A program made the translations under genes and the position numbers. From the NCBI GenBank assembly GCA_021299835.1, contig JAJTER010000050.1:1-47526 (forward strand): a DNA stretch of 47,526 nt, given 5' to 3'. Source of the stretch: Saprospiraceae bacterium. GTDB lineage: Bacteria > Bacteroidota > Bacteroidia > Chitinophagales > Saprospiraceae. A model generated the notes under the pieces. That model saw nothing but the letters and a program-made list of their open reading frames with translations, did no database searches and was not told the origin of the DNA. Every line of letters starts with the position of its first letter. Within the stretch, counting starts at the first letter, position 1. Positions 2,137 to 38,957 of this stretch are shown here, piece after piece.

Positions 2137-2766
2137 ATGCTTTCTGTAGGAATTAGCGGTGGAATAGGAAGTGGAAAAACGCTTGTTTGCACTATTTTTC
2201 AGGTATTAGGCATATCAGTTTATAATTCTGACCTGGAAGCAAAAAGAATAATGGAGACAAATGAGCTGGTTAAAAAAGAAATAATTAAACTACTGGGAGA
2301 AGAAAGCTACTTCAACAACCTATCTTTAAACAGAAAATTTATTGCTGAAAAAATATTTAATCAAAAGGAATTATTACACAGCTTAAATCAAATAGTTCAT
2401 CCGGCAGTTAGAATAGACGCCGAAATCTGGAGCAAAAAAATACCACAAGAAGGCGGTTATTATTTAAGGGAATCAGCTATATTATTTGAAACGGGAATAT
2501 ACAAAAAATTAAATTACAATATATTAGTTACTTCCCCTCAGGAAATTCGCATAGAGCGAATAAAAAGTAGAGATGCTATATCAAAAGAAGACATAATCCT
2601 TCGCATGAAAAATCAATGGGATGATGAACAAAAGTTACCCCTCGCAAATTTTATCATCATAAATGATGAAAAAAACTTGTTAATTCCACAAATTTTAAAA
2701 ATTCATAAGACACTTAAGGATTACTCTTTAAGGCCAACTGATAAGCTGCCAAACATAAATCTTTAG
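2137..2766 (+). CDS. coaE: Dephospho-CoA kinase
   Basis: 209 residues, the normal size for CoaE. The P-loop is GISGGIGSGKT at residues 5-15, followed by VYNSDLEAKRIM, the family's conserved dephospho-CoA-binding Asp region (typically DAD). HPAVR and the lid-region RIERIKSRD are also typical. The enzyme phosphorylates the 3'-hydroxyl of dephospho-CoA with ATP, the last step of coenzyme A synthesis. The last 53 bases overlap the 3' end of the convergent photolyase gene, so the two C-termini are encoded on opposite strands of the same DNA. The ATG lies about 45 bases after the small minus-strand ORF. Confidence 0.94.
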   Translation: MLSVGISGGIGSGKTLVCTIFQVLGISVYNSDLEAKRIMETNELVKKEIIKLLGEESYFNNLSLNRKFIAEKIFNQKELLHSLNQIVHPAVRIDAEIWSKKIPQEGGYYLRESAILFETGIYKKLNYNILVTSPQEIRIERIKSRDAISKEDIILRMKNQWDDEQKLPLANFIIINDEKNLLIPQILKIHKTLKDYSLRPTDKLPNINL

Positions 2767-4051
2767 ACAATTTACTATCAATCATTGGTTTTACATAATG
2801 AGGTGTTCCAAATTCAGGAACCCATCTTTTAATGTATTGAAATTGAGCATCAAATTTAAGCATTTGAGCTTCAGGACTAAAAATACGAAAATAAGGAGCT
2901 GCGTCCGTACCTGAACCAGCCGCCCATTGCCAGCCACCATTATTGCTTGCTAAATCAAAATCTAATAATTTTTCTGCAAAATATTTTTCACCCCATCTCC
3001 AATCGATGAGTAAATTTTTTGTAAGAAAACTTGCTGTTAACATTCTAACCCTATTATGCATAAAACCAGTGGCATTTAACTCTCTCATTCCGGCATCAAC
3101 CAAAGGAAAACCTGTTTTCCCAACAGTCCACCGATCAAAATCATCTAAATTATTCCTCCATTTAATCAAATCATAATTACTTCTGAAAGCATTTTTCTCA
3201 ACATGAGGAAAATTAAATAATATTTGAGCATAGAAATCTCTCCAAATCAGTTCATTCAAAAAGGTTTCATTCAGATTAATAATTTTTCGTGCTAATTCTC
3301 TAATGCCTATGGTGCCAAATCGAAGATGAATTCCCAACCTACTGGTACCCACTTTAGCAGGATAATCTCTATTTTCTGAATAATTTTCAACAACTTTTAG
3401 ATTTAAATCTTTAGATGGAATATCAATTTGTGAAGGTTGAAAATGCATAAATTCGAGGGTTGGAAAATCGGGTACAGTCACATTTGCATATAAATTACCA
3501 TGAAGTAAACCTTCAGAATTATAAGTAAACAATGGACTATTATCACCTTCTAATAATCCTGATTTCAATTTTTCTTTCCAAGCTTTACTATATGGGGTAA
3601 AGACAGTATAGGGAGTACCCGCTGACTTTGATAAAATTTCACGCTCTTCAAAAATAACATGATCTTTACTAAGGTGAAAAGATATATTTTTTGCCTCTAA
3701 AGATTTTTTAATAGCAAGATCTCTTTGTAGGGCATAAGATTCATAATCCTTATTAGTAAACAGAAATTTTACAGGTAATTCATTCGTTATTTTATCAATA
3801 ATTTCAACAGGATTTCCATAAGCGATGTAAAAACTTCCTCCAAGTTTTTCTATTTTTTCTTTTAAAAATATCACCTGATTATAGATAAAGCTTACCCTGG
3901 CATCGGCTTTATTAGATAACCTATTGAGTATATTCGTATCAAAAATAAATATTGGCAATACGGGTAAACCTGCCTTTAGTGCAGCGAATAAGCCTCTATT
4001 ATCTTCTAATCTAAGGTCTCTTCTAAACCAAAAAAGTGAAATTTTAGACAT
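2714..4051 (-). CDS. phrB: Deoxyribodipyrimidine photolyase (class I, cryptochrome/photolyase family)
   Basis: 445 residues. The N-terminal alpha/beta antenna domain begins LFWFRRDLRLEDNRGLF and continues to about residue 130. The C-terminal helical FAD-binding domain carries TSRLGIHLRFGTIGIRELA, ELIWRDFY, WTVGKTGFPLVDAGMREL, GFMHNRVRM and DFDLASNNGGWQWAAGSG, all class I CPD-photolyase signatures. This includes the Asn-containing loop near the FAD N5 and the tryptophans of the electron-transfer chain. It repairs UV-induced pyrimidine dimers with blue light. The coding region overlaps the 3' end of coaE by 53 bases. I cannot separate CPD photolyase from a close cryptochrome with certainty, but the motifs favour repair activity. 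Confidence 0.93.
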   Translation of the reverse strand: MSKISLFWFRRDLRLEDNRGLFAALKAGLPVLPIFIFDTNILNRLSNKADARVSFIYNQVIFLKEKIEKLGGSFYIAYGNPVEIIDKITNELPVKFLFTNKDYESYALQRDLAIKKSLEAKNISFHLSKDHVIFEEREILSKSAGTPYTVFTPYSKAWKEKLKSGLLEGDNSPLFTYNSEGLLHGNLYANVTVPDFPTLEFMHFQPSQIDIPSKDLNLKVVENYSENRDYPAKVGTSRLGIHLRFGTIGIRELARKIINLNETFLNELIWRDFYAQILFNFPHVEKNAFRSNYDLIKWRNNLDDFDRWTVGKTGFPLVDAGMRELNATGFMHNRVRMLTASFLTKNLLIDWRWGEKYFAEKLLDFDLASNNGGWQWAAGSGTDAAPYFRIFSPEAQMLKFDAQFQYIKRWVPEFGTPHYVKPMIDSKLSKDLCLAAYQLALKSNP

Positions 4052-22180: not shown

Positions 22181-22186
22181 TTAGTG

Positions 22187-22260
22187 TCGGGGCACCAGGA
22201 TTTGAACCTGGGACCCCCTGCTCCCAAAGCAGGTGCGCTACCGGGCTGCGCTACGCCCCG
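22187..22260 (-). tRNA. tRNA-Pro (anticodon TGG)
   Basis: The minus strand folds into a complete cloverleaf of 74 bases. The acceptor pairs CGGGGCG with TGCCCCG, the D stem is GCGC/GCGC, and the anticodon stem CCTGC/GCAGG encloses loop TTTGGGA with anticodon TGG. The T arm is CCAGG-TTCAAAT-CCTGG. The discriminator is A. CCA is not encoded. It is 9 bases downstream of tRNA-Ser and is followed by a terminator. Confidence 0.96.
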
Positions 22261-22269
22261 AAAAACCAG

Positions 22270-22356
22270 CGGTGGAGGAGGGATTCGAACCCTCGGTACC
22301 GTTACCAGTACGTCAGTTTAGCAAACTGGTGGTTTAAACCGCTCACCCACTCTACC
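22270..22356 (-). tRNA. tRNA-Ser (anticodon GCT)
   Basis: An 87-base class II tRNA on the minus strand. The anticodon loop TTGCTAA gives GCT, reading AGC/AGU. The long variable arm has a GTAC/GTAC stem and the T arm is GAGGG-TTCGAAT-CCCTC. The discriminator is G and CCA is not encoded. The acceptor GGTAGAG/CTCCACC has an A-C mismatch at position 4:69 and the anticodon stem CCAGT/ACTGA has a C-A mismatch at 27:43. The gene is probably functional because all other elements and a strong promoter are present. Confidence 0.92.
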
Positions 22357-32508: not shown

Positions 32509-32587
32509 AATTGATTTAGCTTTTGGCAATTCATTGCTGAAATATAGCGCTTTTTCAACAAATTTTCAATCAACAAAAACGATAGAA

Positions 32588-33976
32588 ATGCAATTTGCGG
32601 TCATAGATATAGAGACAACGGGAGGAAATGCAACAAATAATAAAATTATTGAAATAGCGGTAGTTGTTCACGATGGGGAAAAAGTAATTAAAACCTGGGA
32701 AACACTAATTAATCCTGAAACCTATATTCCTTATGGCATTACGGAATTAACTGGCATAACGCAATCTATGGTTGCCGATGCTCCTAAATTTTATGAAATA
32801 GCAAAAGAATTAATTGAAGTAACCGAGAATACTGTATTTGTGGCACACAATGTTCGTTTTGATTATTCATTTATCAAAAGTGCATTTAGTGATTTAGGTT
32901 ATACCTTCACCCGTAAACAATTATGTACTATTCAATTAAGTAGAAAGATTTTTCCTTCTCTTCCGAGTTTTGGATTATCCGCCATTTCAAAACATTTGAA
33001 TATACATAATCCCGACAGGCACAGAGCCATGGGCGATGCAATGACTACGGCAAAATTATTGGAATTAATTTTTAAGGAGATAAATGCCGTTGAAGTAATT
33101 GATGATTTAGTAAATATGGGAATCAAGGAGAGCAAACTTCCGAACAATTTGTCTCTTCAAGATATACAATCATTGCCTGATACCTGCGGAATTTATTATT
33201 TTAAGAACGAAAATGGAAACATAGTTTATGTAGGAAAAAGTAAAAATATTCAAAAAAGAGTAGCTTCACATTTTTCAGATTACACGGAAAAAGCATCAAA
33301 ATTGCAACGATTAGTTTACGATATAGACTTTGAAGAAACCGGTTCTGAATTAGCCTCACTCATTTTAGAATCTTATCAAATAAAAAAAATAATGCCTGAG
33401 GTTAACAAGGCACAAAGAGCGAAAACATATCAGTTCATAATTTATAGTTACCTTAATAATCAAGGATATTTATGTTTTGATATAAAGCAGAAAAAGGATT
33501 TCAAGAAGAATAAAAAAGTAGAGATTCTCTCTGAGTATAGTAAAATAACCATTGCAAAGAGCAGATTAAGCGCTTACAGGCAGGAATTTAACCTATGTGA
33601 TCATTTGATGGAAGGAGATTCGTTATTTGGCATTCCTTGCTTTCACTATAAAATAAAACAATGCGCTGGTGCTTGTTGCTCAAAAGAAGAAGTAACTTCT
33701 TATAATGAGCGTGCAGAATTAGCAAAACTGAAATTGAAAAAGAGTTTAGATGGCAGTTTTTTAATAATAGATGAGGGAAGAACAAAGGGAGAAAAATGTA
33801 TCATTGCTGTTCAAAGCGGTCAATTCTATGGCTATGATTATATTGAGGAAGAATTATTTCAAGATTCACTTGGTCAATGGGAAGAATTCATTAAAAAATA
33901 TCCTGAAAATGGAGAAATAAATCAAATTATAAGCAGATATATGACTAAAAACAAATTAACAACAATAACAATATAG
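32588..33976 (+). CDS. DnaQ-type exonuclease fused to UvrC-like GIY-YIG nuclease with four-cysteine motif
   Basis: 462 residues from ATG 32588. Residues 1-180 form a DEDDh 3'-5' exonuclease: Asp7 and Glu9 in VIDIETTGG, Asp92 in HNVRFDYSF, His145 and Asp150 in HRAMGDAMT. Residues about 195-290 form a GIY-YIG nuclease (TCGIYYFKNENG, IVYVGKSKNIQKRV, SLILESYQIKK) as in UvrC and Cho. Further on, Cys337, Cys351, Cys359 and Cys363 have the spacing C-x13-C-x7-C-x3-C, close to the cysteine set that binds a 4Fe-4S cluster in UvrC. UvrBC helix-hairpin-helix and the second nuclease domain are absent. The architecture suggests a repair enzyme that incises and trims damaged DNA. A longer frame from 32534 (TTG) is not favoured. 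Confidence 0.88.
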   Translation: MQFAVIDIETTGGNATNNKIIEIAVVVHDGEKVIKTWETLINPETYIPYGITELTGITQSMVADAPKFYEIAKELIEVTENTVFVAHNVRFDYSFIKSAFSDLGYTFTRKQLCTIQLSRKIFPSLPSFGLSAISKHLNIHNPDRHRAMGDAMTTAKLLELIFKEINAVEVIDDLVNMGIKESKLPNNLSLQDIQSLPDTCGIYYFKNENGNIVYVGKSKNIQKRVASHFSDYTEKASKLQRLVYDIDFEETGSELASLILESYQIKKIMPEVNKAQRAKTYQFIIYSYLNNQGYLCFDIKQKKDFKKNKKVEILSEYSKITIAKSRLSAYRQEFNLCDHLMEGDSLFGIPCFHYKIKQCAGACCSKEEVTSYNERAELAKLKLKKSLDGSFLIIDEGRTKGEKCIIAVQSGQFYGYDYIEEELFQDSLGQWEEFIKKYPENGEINQIISRYMTKNKLTTITI

Positions 33977-35079: not shown

Positions 35080-36144
35080 TTAGATATTTGAATGAATATT
35101 AATTTTGAGTAAAGTGGCCTTAGCAATTTCGTTAAAAGCAGGTTGAATTAAATCTGCCTGTTCATTAAGATAAGCAGGCAAACCATTGTCCCCTCCTTCC
35201 CTAATACTTTGAATCAAAGGCACCTGACCTAAAACATTGGTGTTTCCATAAGAAGCCAGCTTTTGCCCTCCACCCTGACCGAAGAGGAAATATTTTCTAT
35301 CAGGATTTTCAGCAGGAGTAAACCAGGACATATTTTCGACTACCCCCAAAATAGGAACATTTACGGAAGGTAATTGAAACATATTCAGCGCTTTAATGGC
35401 ATCAACGACGGCGACTTCCTGAGGCGTAGTTACAATAATAGCACCGGTTAGCTGGACAGTTTGAACCAAACTAAGTTGAACATCACCTGTACCTGGAGGA
35501 AGATCAACGATTAGAAAATCTAATTCAGGCCATAAAGTATCCAGGAAAAATTGTTTAATAATCCCGGATAATCTTGGACCTCTCATAACTACCGCTTGTT
35601 CAGGTTCAATAATGAAACCCATAGAGATAAGAGGCATACCAAAGGCAATCAGTGGTTTGATTTTAGGTTGGCCGTTCACCGTATCCACTTCTGGTCTTTT
35701 TCCTGACAGACCGAGCATAGTAGGTATGGATGGACCATAAAGATCAGCATCCAGAATGCCCGTTTTAAATCCGGCGGCCTTCAATGCAAGCGCAAGATTA
35801 ACTGAAATCGTAGATTTTCCAACCCCACCCTTTCCAGAACCAACGGCAATAATATGTTTAATCTGAGGTAACAAATTATTGTCAGGAGCCGGTATTGAAA
35901 TTTTGTCATTTACCAAATGGACATGAACATTCAGTGCTGGATAAATGGTGTTAATTTCCTGGACACATTTGAAGTGTAATTCTGATTTTTCAGAACTAAT
36001 CAAGCCAAAAACATGAAGATTAAAGAAAAGATTATTTTCTTCCAATCTAAGTTGATTGACTATATCAGAAGATACAATATCCTTTCCTGTTTTAGGATGA
36101 AGGACATTTTTTAGTATTTTAGTAATTTCCTGGATATCCATCAT
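35080..36144 (-). CDS. mrp: Mrp/ApbC-type P-loop ATPase for Fe-S cluster transfer
   Basis: 354 residues. An N-terminal MIP18/DUF59 domain (about 1-90) precedes the deviant Walker A motif VGSGKGGVGKSTISVNLALAL, followed by LDADLYGPSIPTMLG, FLIVDLPPGTGDVQLS and GVVENMSWFTPAEN. These are the Mrp/NBP35 family motifs. The CxxC that follows ENMS-x-F in E. coli ApbC is absent here (FTPAENPDRKY), a form I also associate with other Bacteroidota. The role in carrying Fe-S clusters therefore rests on family and on the adjacent nfu gene. Two consecutive ATGs can start it. A TACCTTTG box lies 16-24 bases upstream. Confidence 0.93.
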   Translation of the reverse strand: MMDIQEITKILKNVLHPKTGKDIVSSDIVNQLRLEENNLFFNLHVFGLISSEKSELHFKCVQEINTIYPALNVHVHLVNDKISIPAPDNNLLPQIKHIIAVGSGKGGVGKSTISVNLALALKAAGFKTGILDADLYGPSIPTMLGLSGKRPEVDTVNGQPKIKPLIAFGMPLISMGFIIEPEQAVVMRGPRLSGIIKQFFLDTLWPELDFLIVDLPPGTGDVQLSLVQTVQLTGAIIVTTPQEVAVVDAIKALNMFQLPSVNVPILGVVENMSWFTPAENPDRKYFLFGQGGGQKLASYGNTNVLGQVPLIQSIREGGDNGLPAYLNEQADLIQPAFNEIAKATLLKINIHSNI

Positions 36145-36211: not shown

Positions 36212-36219
36212 TACCTTTG
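36212..36219 (+). promoter_or_regulatory. Putative ribF promoter, -7 box TACCTTTG (leaderless start)
   Basis: TACCTTTG ends 7 bases before the ribF ATG at 36227, so the predicted transcript start coincides with or directly precedes the start codon. This would make ribF mRNA leaderless or nearly so. The -33 element is not evident. Confidence 0.5.
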
Positions 36220-36226
36220 CGATGCT

Positions 36227-38236
36227 ATGAGAATACATAAGGATATAAATAAATTACCCGTTTTCAAACAAGCGGTAATAACGATCGGATCATTTGATGG
36301 TGTCCATTTAGGACATAAAAAATTGATAAATAAGGTTAATCGTCTTGCAAAAAGTACGGGTGGGGAAAGTGTGTTAATAACTTTCGACCCACATCCAAGG
36401 CAAATTGTCTTCCCTGGAGATGATTTTCAGCTACTTTCCACGATAGAGGAAAAAATAATTTTACTTGAAAAATTAGAGGTAGATCATCTGGTAATTGTTC
36501 CTTTTACGGTAACCTTTGCACAGCTTAGTGCAGATGAATACATAGAAATGTTTTTGGTTAAATTATTTAAACCAAGATATATTGTTATTGGGTATGACCA
36601 TAGGTTTGGATTAAGCAGGCAGGGCGACATACATTTTTTAAAATGGCACGGCGCTAAATTTGGCTATGAGGTTATCGATATCGAGAAACAAGAAATCGAA
36701 GAAATAGCTATTAGCTCAACTAAGATACGAAGAGCTTTACTTCAGGGAGATATTAAACAGGCAAATTTACTTGCTCAAGATCACTATATTTTATCTGGTG
36801 AAGTTGTACACGGAGATAAAATGGGAAAGAAATTAGGATTCCCAACTGCTAATATTCAAATATCTGACAAGCACAAATTAATACCTTCAGATGGTATATA
36901 CGCCGTTTGGGTTCATATTGATAATACTCAATATGAAGGTATGTTATATATTGGACATCGACCCAGCATTAATTCAAAGCGATCATTAAGGATTGAAGTC
37001 AATATATTTGACTTTGATAAAGAAATTTATGGAAAAAAAATTAGTATCCTTTTAGTAGAATTTTTGAGGTCAGATCAACAACTTGACACTTTGGATAAAC
37101 TATCAAAAATTATTTCTGAAGATAAAATTCATGCAAAAGCTGTTTTAGCACAGGCAAATAAAATAGAACCAAAGAAGATTAATCCAGAAATAGCTATCGT
37201 TATTTTAAATTATAATGGAAAAGAGTGGCTGACCAAATTCCTTCCAGATGTTATTAAATATAGGTTGGACAATGCTAAAATTATCATTGCTGATAATTTT
37301 TCAACAGATGATTCTGTTGCTTTTTTAAATGAAAATTTTGGTAACGACATTGAAATTATAAAACTTCCAAAAAATACTGGTTATGCGGGAGGTTATAATG
37401 AAGCGTTAAAGTTAATACAGGCAGATTATTTCCTATTGCTTAATTCTGATGTTTTAGTCACTGAAAATTGGATGACTCCCCTATTGGAAGTCATGGAAGC
37501 AGACTACAACGTTGCTATTTGCCAGCCTAAGATTCTTTCTTTTGATAACCCATCTAAGTTTGAATATGCAGGAGGTGCCGGAGGTTGGCTTGACATTCTA
37601 GGTTATCCATTTTGTAAAGGAAGAGTATTAGGTCATATTGAATATGACTTAGGACAATATGACTATCCGTCGGAAATTTTTTGGGCCAGTGGTGCTGCTT
37701 TTATGATTCGGGCCCCTTTGTTCAAAGCGATAGGTGGTTTTGATGCAAGCTATTTTGCGCACATGGAAGAAATTGATTTGTGTTGGAGAGTAAAAAGGGC
37801 AGGCTTTAAGGTCATGGTTGTTCCTGATGCTATCATTTATCATGTTGGAGGTGGCACGTTAGACTACGACTCCCCAAAAAAGGTTTATTTGAATTTTAGA
37901 AATTCACTATATACCTTAATGAAAAATGAACCAATCACTCATTTGTTATGGAAAATTCCCGCCAGATTTATTTTGGACGGTTTTGCAGCCATTTTATATC
38001 TGGTCACTAAGGACAGACATTTTGTAATGTCCATATTGAAAGCCCATCTTTCTTTTTATAAAAATTTTAGAAGGGTATTACAAAAGCGAGCTGAAGGAAA
38101 TTCTTTAGTAAGGGCACTGAGAACCAAAGAGAGAAATACTGTCGTTGGAAGATATTCAAAATTGATTGTTTTGGATTATTACTTATTTAATAAAAAAACC
38201 TTTAAGGAAATAATTCAAAATGAAAACGAACATTGA
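36227..38236 (+). CDS. ribF: RibF (riboflavin kinase/FMN adenylyltransferase) fused to a GT2 glycosyltransferase
   Basis: 669 residues in one open frame. Residues 1-312 are a complete RibF: the nucleotidyltransferase part with ITIGSFDGVHLGHKKLI, LITFDPHPRQ, IVIGYDHRFG and ISSTKIRRALLQGD, then the riboflavin kinase part with GEVVHGDKMGKKLGFPTANI and the C-terminal LDKLSKIISEDKIHAKAVL. From residue 319 a family 2 glycosyltransferase begins (IAIVILNYNGKEWLTKFLPDV), with NFSTDDSVAFL, LPKNTGYAGGYNEAL, the metal site LLLNSDVLV, ASGAAFMIRAPLF and HMEEIDLCWRVKRAG. The end has a possible amphipathic or membrane stretch. No ATG, GTG or TTG occurs in frame between about residue 283 and the GT2 start, so separate initiation is unlikely. 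The last 17 bases overlap the pseudouridine synthase gene. Confidence 0.92.
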   Translation: MRIHKDINKLPVFKQAVITIGSFDGVHLGHKKLINKVNRLAKSTGGESVLITFDPHPRQIVFPGDDFQLLSTIEEKIILLEKLEVDHLVIVPFTVTFAQLSADEYIEMFLVKLFKPRYIVIGYDHRFGLSRQGDIHFLKWHGAKFGYEVIDIEKQEIEEIAISSTKIRRALLQGDIKQANLLAQDHYILSGEVVHGDKMGKKLGFPTANIQISDKHKLIPSDGIYAVWVHIDNTQYEGMLYIGHRPSINSKRSLRIEVNIFDFDKEIYGKKISILLVEFLRSDQQLDTLDKLSKIISEDKIHAKAVLAQANKIEPKKINPEIAIVILNYNGKEWLTKFLPDVIKYRLDNAKIIIADNFSTDDSVAFLNENFGNDIEIIKLPKNTGYAGGYNEALKLIQADYFLLLNSDVLVTENWMTPLLEVMEADYNVAICQPKILSFDNPSKFEYAGGAGGWLDILGYPFCKGRVLGHIEYDLGQYDYPSEIFWASGAAFMIRAPLFKAIGGFDASYFAHMEEIDLCWRVKRAGFKVMVVPDAIIYHVGGGTLDYDSPKKVYLNFRNSLYTLMKNEPITHLLWKIPARFILDGFAAILYLVTKDRHFVMSILKAHLSFYKNFRRVLQKRAEGNSLVRALRTKERNTVVGRYSKLIVLDYYLFNKKTFKEIIQNENEH

Positions 38237-38957
38237 TATTTTGTATAGCGACGAAGACATCGTGGTAATTAACAAACCCTCGGGTATGTTGAGTATTCCC
38301 GACAGATTTGAAGCGTCCAAAGAAAATTTATCTGTTTTATTGAAAACTCATTTCAATGGTGATATTTTTGTAGTTCACAGAATTGACAGAGAAACCAGTG
38401 GCATATTATGTTTCGCAAGAACAGCAGATTCTCACAAACATTTAAATAATCAGTTTTTACTTCACAAGGTAGATAAAACTTATTATGCTTTTATTGATGG
38501 TCATCTTGACGATGATGAGGGAACAATTGATGCAAGAATTGCACCCCATCCTTATCAGGAAGGTAAAATGATAGCGGGAAAAGTTGGAAAAGAGGCCTTA
38601 ACTCATTATAGAGTACTGGAAAAATTTAGATTAGGTTCTTTTGTAGAAATTAAAATTGAAACGGGAAGAACGCATCAGATCAGAACCCACTTTAAGTATA
38701 TTAATCACCCATTATTGGTGGATTCAATTTATGGAAAAAGAGAGGCTGTTTTCGGGAAGGATATTAAAGGACACAAATACCACGCCATCGTAAAACCAGA
38801 AGAGGAAGATAGACCATTACTTCATCGATTGTCATTACATGCTGGTAAATTAGGACTAATTCACCCTACAAAAGAAATAAAAATGGAATGGGAAGCTCCC
38901 CTACCAAAAGATATGAAAGCCACTTTAAACCAATTAAAAAAATGGAATAAAATATAA
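38220..38957 (+). CDS. RluA-family pseudouridine synthase
   Basis: 245 residues. The catalytic motif VVHRIDRETSGILCFARTA holds the Asp that attacks the uracil ring. VVINKPSGMLSIP near the N-terminus, ETGRTHQIRTHFKYINHPLLVDSIYG and LHRLSLHA complete the RluA signature. There is no S4 RNA-binding domain. The enzyme isomerises specific uridines in rRNA or tRNA, but the site cannot be told from sequence. The start overlaps the end of the RibF-GT2 gene by 17 bases, which suggests translational coupling in one mRNA. A terminator hairpin overlaps its stop codon. Confidence 0.92.
   Translation: MKTNIDILYSDEDIVVINKPSGMLSIPDRFEASKENLSVLLKTHFNGDIFVVHRIDRETSGILCFARTADSHKHLNNQFLLHKVDKTYYAFIDGHLDDDEGTIDARIAPHPYQEGKMIAGKVGKEALTHYRVLEKFRLGSFVEIKIETGRTHQIRTHFKYINHPLLVDSIYGKREAVFGKDIKGHKYHAIVKPEEEDRPLLHRLSLHAGKLGLIHPTKEIKMEWEAPLPKDMKATLNQLKKWNKI

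Follow-up and report, generated by a model that had tools for sequence, protein, structure and literature searches.

The gene at positions 36227 to 38236 on the forward strand of the window (the whole 47,526-nt stretch of Saprospiraceae DNA analyzed here) encodes a single chain in which a complete RibF is followed, without an intervening stop codon, by a complete family 2 glycosyltransferase (GT2), and this fusion is the usual state across approximately 100 genera of the family Saprospiraceae. RibF, GT2 enzymes and gene fusion are each known; what is apparently new is a lineage-wide and seemingly recurrent RibF-GT2 architecture. We consider it probable that the fusion arose repeatedly by read-through of a translationally coupled gene pair, yielding modules that act mostly independently and are made in a 1:1 ratio. 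Our search of the open literature returned no description of a RibF-GT2 fusion, although an earlier listing is possible in supplementary riboflavin-fusion tables or subscription papers.

The reading frame comprises 669 codons plus stop with no internal stop codon, and full-length homologues occur in relatives. The RibF module (residues 1–312; 36227–37162, forward strand) matches FAD_syn (PF06574) at residues 14–166 (158 bits, gathering cut-off 27) and Flavokinase (PF01687) at residues 185–307 (130 bits, gathering cut-off 19.6), and passes the NCBIfam models TIGR00083 for ribF (256 bits, cut-off 184) and NF004160 (297 bits, cut-off 295). RibF ends near residue 312 and is followed by a linker (residues 313–319; 37163–37183, forward strand) and the GT2 module (residues 320–669; 37184–38233, forward strand), whose first strand begins at residue 322 and which matches Glycos_transf_2 (PF00535) at residues 324–446 (76.6 bits, gathering cut-off 23.3). 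The initial annotation had described a complete RibF, residues 1–312, running stop-free into a complete GT2, and these profile scores bear out both the description and its coordinates.

Its statement that both modules keep their motifs likewise holds. The FMN adenylyltransferase motifs FDGVHLGH, PHPR, GYDHRFG and SSTKIR and the riboflavin kinase motifs GKKLGFPTANI and IEVNIFDF are present, and an alignment covering 21 genera showed H27/H30, S163-S164-T165, P206-T207-A208-N209 and E257 to be invariant or nearly so; we take the corresponding HxGH, SSTxIR and PTAN motifs and the kinase glutamate to have the catalytic roles assigned in known RibFs. Equally conserved in the GT2 module are N406-S-D408 (NSDV, a DxD-type metal site) and E514-E515-I-D517 (EEIDLCWR, the catalytic-base region), and the module also carries YHVGGGTL. 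Both active sites are retained in all 21 fused family members compared. Residues 1–312 share modules, order and motifs with the structurally characterized bifunctional RibFs (PDB 2x0k/4uzf and 1mrz; 4uzf match 1e-44), but known RibFs stop after the C-terminal helix of the kinase, whereas the fusion protein adds a C-terminal GT2 of approximately 350 residues. A profile search of the source genome returned a single FAD_syn match, the RibF of the fusion, which argues that this module makes FMN and FAD and is most likely the cell's only source of both, as judged from gene content. The GT2 paralogues of the same genome are distant (≤32% identity).

The GT2 module was predicted with high confidence on its own (AlphaFold pLDDT 91, pTM 0.90), and the model matched GT-A enzymes over nearly its whole length, with Z scores of 19–25 (maximum 24.8). 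Its closest folds are ppGalNAc-T (GT27) and the mycobacterial and Nocardia GlfT2 (GT2), yet identity to these is only 14–19%; sequence matches in the PDB were weak, and the structure search gives the general GT-A fold. Assignment to a named GT2 subfamily (MftF, the TIGR01556 rhamnosyltransferases, PgaC and others) was rejected, as all NCBIfam scores fell far below cut-off (MftF 70.9 against 280; rhamnosyltransferase 45.9 against 200.6). The helices at residues 550–631, near the C-terminus, are basic and amphipathic in the model, which suggests contact with the inner membrane. For the whole chain, pLDDT was 85 and pTM 0.56, with a low-confidence block at residues 311–320 (pLDDT 59), so that the prediction gives the two modules no fixed position relative to each other; RibF and GT2 would fold independently, as two beads on a string joined by a flexible linker. 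The suggestion in the initial annotation that the fusion may couple the two enzymes on one chain is certain in the structural sense; a metabolic purpose for this coupling is possible.

We next considered the distribution of the fusion. It is present in 7/7 genomes of the source genus at 94–100% identity, and the linker differs among these genomes by synonymous and some non-synonymous substitutions while the frame stays open. Across the genus, dN/dS is 0.03–0.05 for RibF, 0.06–0.09 for the linker and 0.09–0.10 for GT2; all three segments are under purifying selection. Among 248 Saprospiraceae genomes, 186 gave one profile match spanning both modules, and five of these (G027, G028, G219, G243 and G158) were dropped because of an in-frame stop between the modules. 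The remaining 181 single open reading frames, together with two fused genes cut by contig ends (G195 and G207), bring the total to approximately 183 of 248. The locus is absent from 16 genomes, most likely through assembly gaps, since FAD_syn is truncated at a contig end in two of them. With a joint-score threshold reachable by a joined match alone, no fusion was found outside the family among 199 genomes of the order (34 matches, all Saprospiraceae) or among 395 genomes of the phylum (5 matches, all Saprospiraceae).

These data dispose of the concern that a sequencing or assembly error in the linker hides a stop or a frameshift. The source assembly is a fragmented draft of 205 contigs, which gave that concern some substance, but the same open frame is shared by all seven genus genomes, with dS of approximately 0.2–0.4 and low dN across the junction, and by most of the family, including a single-contig 7.5-Mb assembly (G091) and the type-strain isolate Neolewinella persica DSM 23188 (L037); the chance of such an error is negligible. 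The initial annotation had also held that many proteins with the same fusion would count against it. The architecture is indeed family-wide and not unique to the source genome, but the reading frame and the fusion themselves are real.

Gene neighborhoods in related genomes proved informative for the origin of the fusion. Where the two genes are unfused in Saprospiraceae and both could be located, they are adjacent and on the same strand in 41/44 genomes, the exceptions being G085, where 82 kb separates them, G105, where they lie on different contigs, and G128, with 1.3 kb in between. In the last of these, an opposite-strand open reading frame of approximately 381 codons (L137, G128:C113, positions 2244–3386) lies between ribF and GT2 as an insertion into the tight pair, and the C-terminus of its product resembles a type IX secretion sorting signal. 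The unfused junctions are close: 16/31 overlap or abut and 22/31 lie within 20 nt, the commonest form being a −4 overlap (ATGA, GTGA or TTGA). Overlaps of the ATGA type are associated with termination-reinitiation translational coupling (PMC10666635). Elsewhere in the order and across the phylum, ribF and GT2 occupy separate loci. Loss of a stop codon between neighbors, which the initial annotation had offered as a possible origin, is supported by the tight pair and by an ancestor best read as unfused. Beyond what the single sequence could show, the fusion is no one-off: it is the norm over about 100 genera of the family and has seemingly arisen repeatedly.

The history was reconstructed from 138 concatenated RibF and GT2 pairs with FastTree and IQ-TREE. 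Both trees imply 15 changes between the fused and unfused states, of which well-supported branches force 8 (FastTree) or 11 (IQ-TREE); unfused genomes were deliberately over-sampled, which can inflate such counts, and deep branches are weak. Linkage of ribF and GT2 is placed at the family's base and was broken once later, for a total of two linked/unlinked changes. Under a two-state model, an unfused root with repeated gain (lnL −45.6 and −45.5) is favored by likelihood over a fused root with losses only (−48.0 and −53.2), the difference on one tree being only approximately 2.4 units. Measured in one way throughout, the linkers of fused genes span 2 to 24 residues, as expected from several fusion events.

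The same linker bears on whether the cell in fact contains two ordinary enzymes, through proteolytic cleavage of the single polypeptide or an additional internal start for GT2. The short, flexible linker predicted by the model would suit such a scheme. Against it, a scan of residues 291–323 in the source genome and six other genus genomes contained no ATG, GTG or TTG, confirming what the initial annotation had reported for the linker, and 15/89 fused genes have an ATG no more than 20 codons from the GT2 core, compared with 21 expected by chance, so that a start codon is evidently not being maintained. We accordingly found no support for a separate GT2 start within the linker, in keeping with the earlier view that GT2 is not easily made on its own. 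The variability of the linker in sequence and length (2–24 residues) speaks against processing, and no shared cleavage motif was seen in its alignment across 21 genera. Taken as a whole, production of two separate enzymes is improbable.

Conservation of the linkage provides the main reason to give weight to a functional link between the two enzymes. Genomes without the fusion retain the ribF-GT2 link (41/44) much more often than the flanking GT2-rluA link (7/18; Fisher p = 1.5e-5) or mrp-ribF link (2/11; p = 1.7e-6), both of which rest on small samples (n = 18 and n = 11). This retention exceeds that of a frozen neighborhood and suggests that joint expression or association is under selection. 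On such grounds the fusion could couple the supply of flavins to the synthesis of envelope glycans. RibF might, for instance, be held at the inner membrane by the basic amphipathic helices of GT2, close to flavoenzymes of the membrane or to flavin export; alternatively, the flavin level could tune GT2. Repeated fusion, the specifically kept adjacency, the preservation of both active sites throughout the fused members compared and the basic and hydrophobic character of the GT2 C-terminal helices all favor this possibility, as does the envelope character of the GT2 neighbors in other lineages.

The GT2 is a core gene, found in 58/60 Bacteroidia genomes and usually in single copy. The stand-alone core Bacteroidota GT2 (approximately 340–350 residues, PF00535) is a full-length orthologue of the fused module, at 44–53% identity and with the same length and motifs. 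It often lies near genes for a GWxTD protein, a lipid A acyltransferase-like protein, aroQ, xerD or holA, whereas the fusion GT2 is joined to ribF. No ribF was found in the fetched flanks of 64 unfused GT2 loci from other lineages. Frequent neighbors there were a GWxTD protein (24), aroQ (14), lipid A acyltransferase-type genes (13) and a histidine kinase (11), consistent with a role in envelope or LPS-type glycans. Conversely, 14 ribF loci from other families had no GT2 within approximately 4–5 kb, with GT2 about 10 kb away in one (G049) and holA beside ribF in three (L160, L168 and L159, from other families of the order), two of which (L160 and L168) also have an HSDR_N-type gene nearby. Genes for holA and HSDR_N-type proteins flank stand-alone GT2 in other Bacteroidota as well, which is suggestive of an old shared neighborhood but too thin to claim. 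The core Bacteroidia GT2 outside Saprospiraceae (for example L051 and L061), which carries no curated name and is repeatedly found next to GWxTD and lipid A acyltransferase-type genes, poses a worthwhile question of function in its own right.

Set against functional coupling are the lack of a known substrate or intermediate shared by RibF and GT2, the separation of the two genes elsewhere in the phylum, and the absence of fixed contact between the predicted modules. Moreover, several genera contain both fused and unfused species, which shows the fusion to be dispensable. On balance we regard a functional fusion as rather unlikely, and its specific form, in which Saprospiraceae would tie the two enzymes together through membrane-anchored flavin-cofactor synthesis or through flavin status setting the rate of envelope-glycan synthesis, as a little more doubtful still. 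If true, it would represent a new flavin-envelope link and give a role to a core Bacteroidota glycosyltransferase.

The fusion gene itself overlaps by 17 nt with a downstream gene for an RluA-like pseudouridine synthase (38220–38957, forward strand; PseudoU_synth_2, 1.8e-33), which probably belongs to the same transcription unit and is found downstream in 74/89 fused loci tested. Upstream lies a divergent gene for an Mrp/NUBPL-type Fe-S carrier ATPase (35080–36144, reverse strand; PF10609, 7e-87), an arrangement seen in 52/84 fused loci tested. A candidate promoter element, TACCTTTG (36212–36219, forward strand), ends 7 nt before the ATG; it fits TAnnTTTG, which we take to be the Bacteroidota −7 consensus, and is conserved upstream of ribF in 7/7 genus genomes. 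If it is a −7 element, the fusion mRNA may be near-leaderless. No FMN riboswitch or other RNA was detected at the locus, and the only RNA matches within the window were two tandem tRNA genes, Pro(tgg) and Ser(gct), at 22186–22356 on the reverse strand. Separately, the window encodes another two-module protein (32534–33976, forward strand), in which a DnaQ-type exonuclease domain (RNase_T, 2.8e-34) precedes a stretch that, judged by eye, resembles a GIY-YIG/UvrC N-terminal domain.

In Rosetta-stone terms, both modules exist as separate orthologous genes elsewhere in the order and phylum. Fusions of this kind in B-vitamin pathways, riboflavin genes included, have been compiled (PMC4921024); they are likewise separate genes in most taxa and one gene in some, RibF itself being an example, but the ribF-GT2 fusion differs from them in having a partner from outside the pathway.

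Read-through fusion of a coupled pair, the explanation we prefer, would proceed as follows. The core GT2 gene would have been placed directly downstream of ribF in the Saprospiraceae ancestor as an overlapping, presumably coupled pair. Short insertions or deletions, or loss of the stop codon, within the overlap would then have brought the two frames together more than once, in separate lineages. The resulting chain of FAD synthetase, riboflavin kinase, flexible linker and GT2 would be made from one start, each module keeping its ancestral job: RibF would make FMN and FAD, and GT2, working at the inner membrane face, would use a nucleotide-sugar donor to glycosylate an envelope glycan acceptor. 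Through fusion, the modules would be made in a fixed 1:1 ratio and be co-localized. We know of no metabolite or intermediate common to RibF and GT2, which makes channeling unlikely, and any gain would come through co-expression or a membrane-held RibF. Repeated fusion and tight linkage in unfused genomes could equally signal a selected functional or physical association.

Across about 100 genera, an apparently essential cofactor enzyme seems to have become fused, time and again, to an enzyme of an unrelated pathway, and unfused sister species provide natural controls. Automatic annotation may name these proteins by one half alone. Either operon overlap alone drives fusion this far, a caution for guilt-by-fusion annotation, or the fusion is a first clue to the function of the core Bacteroidota GT2 and its relation to flavin metabolism.
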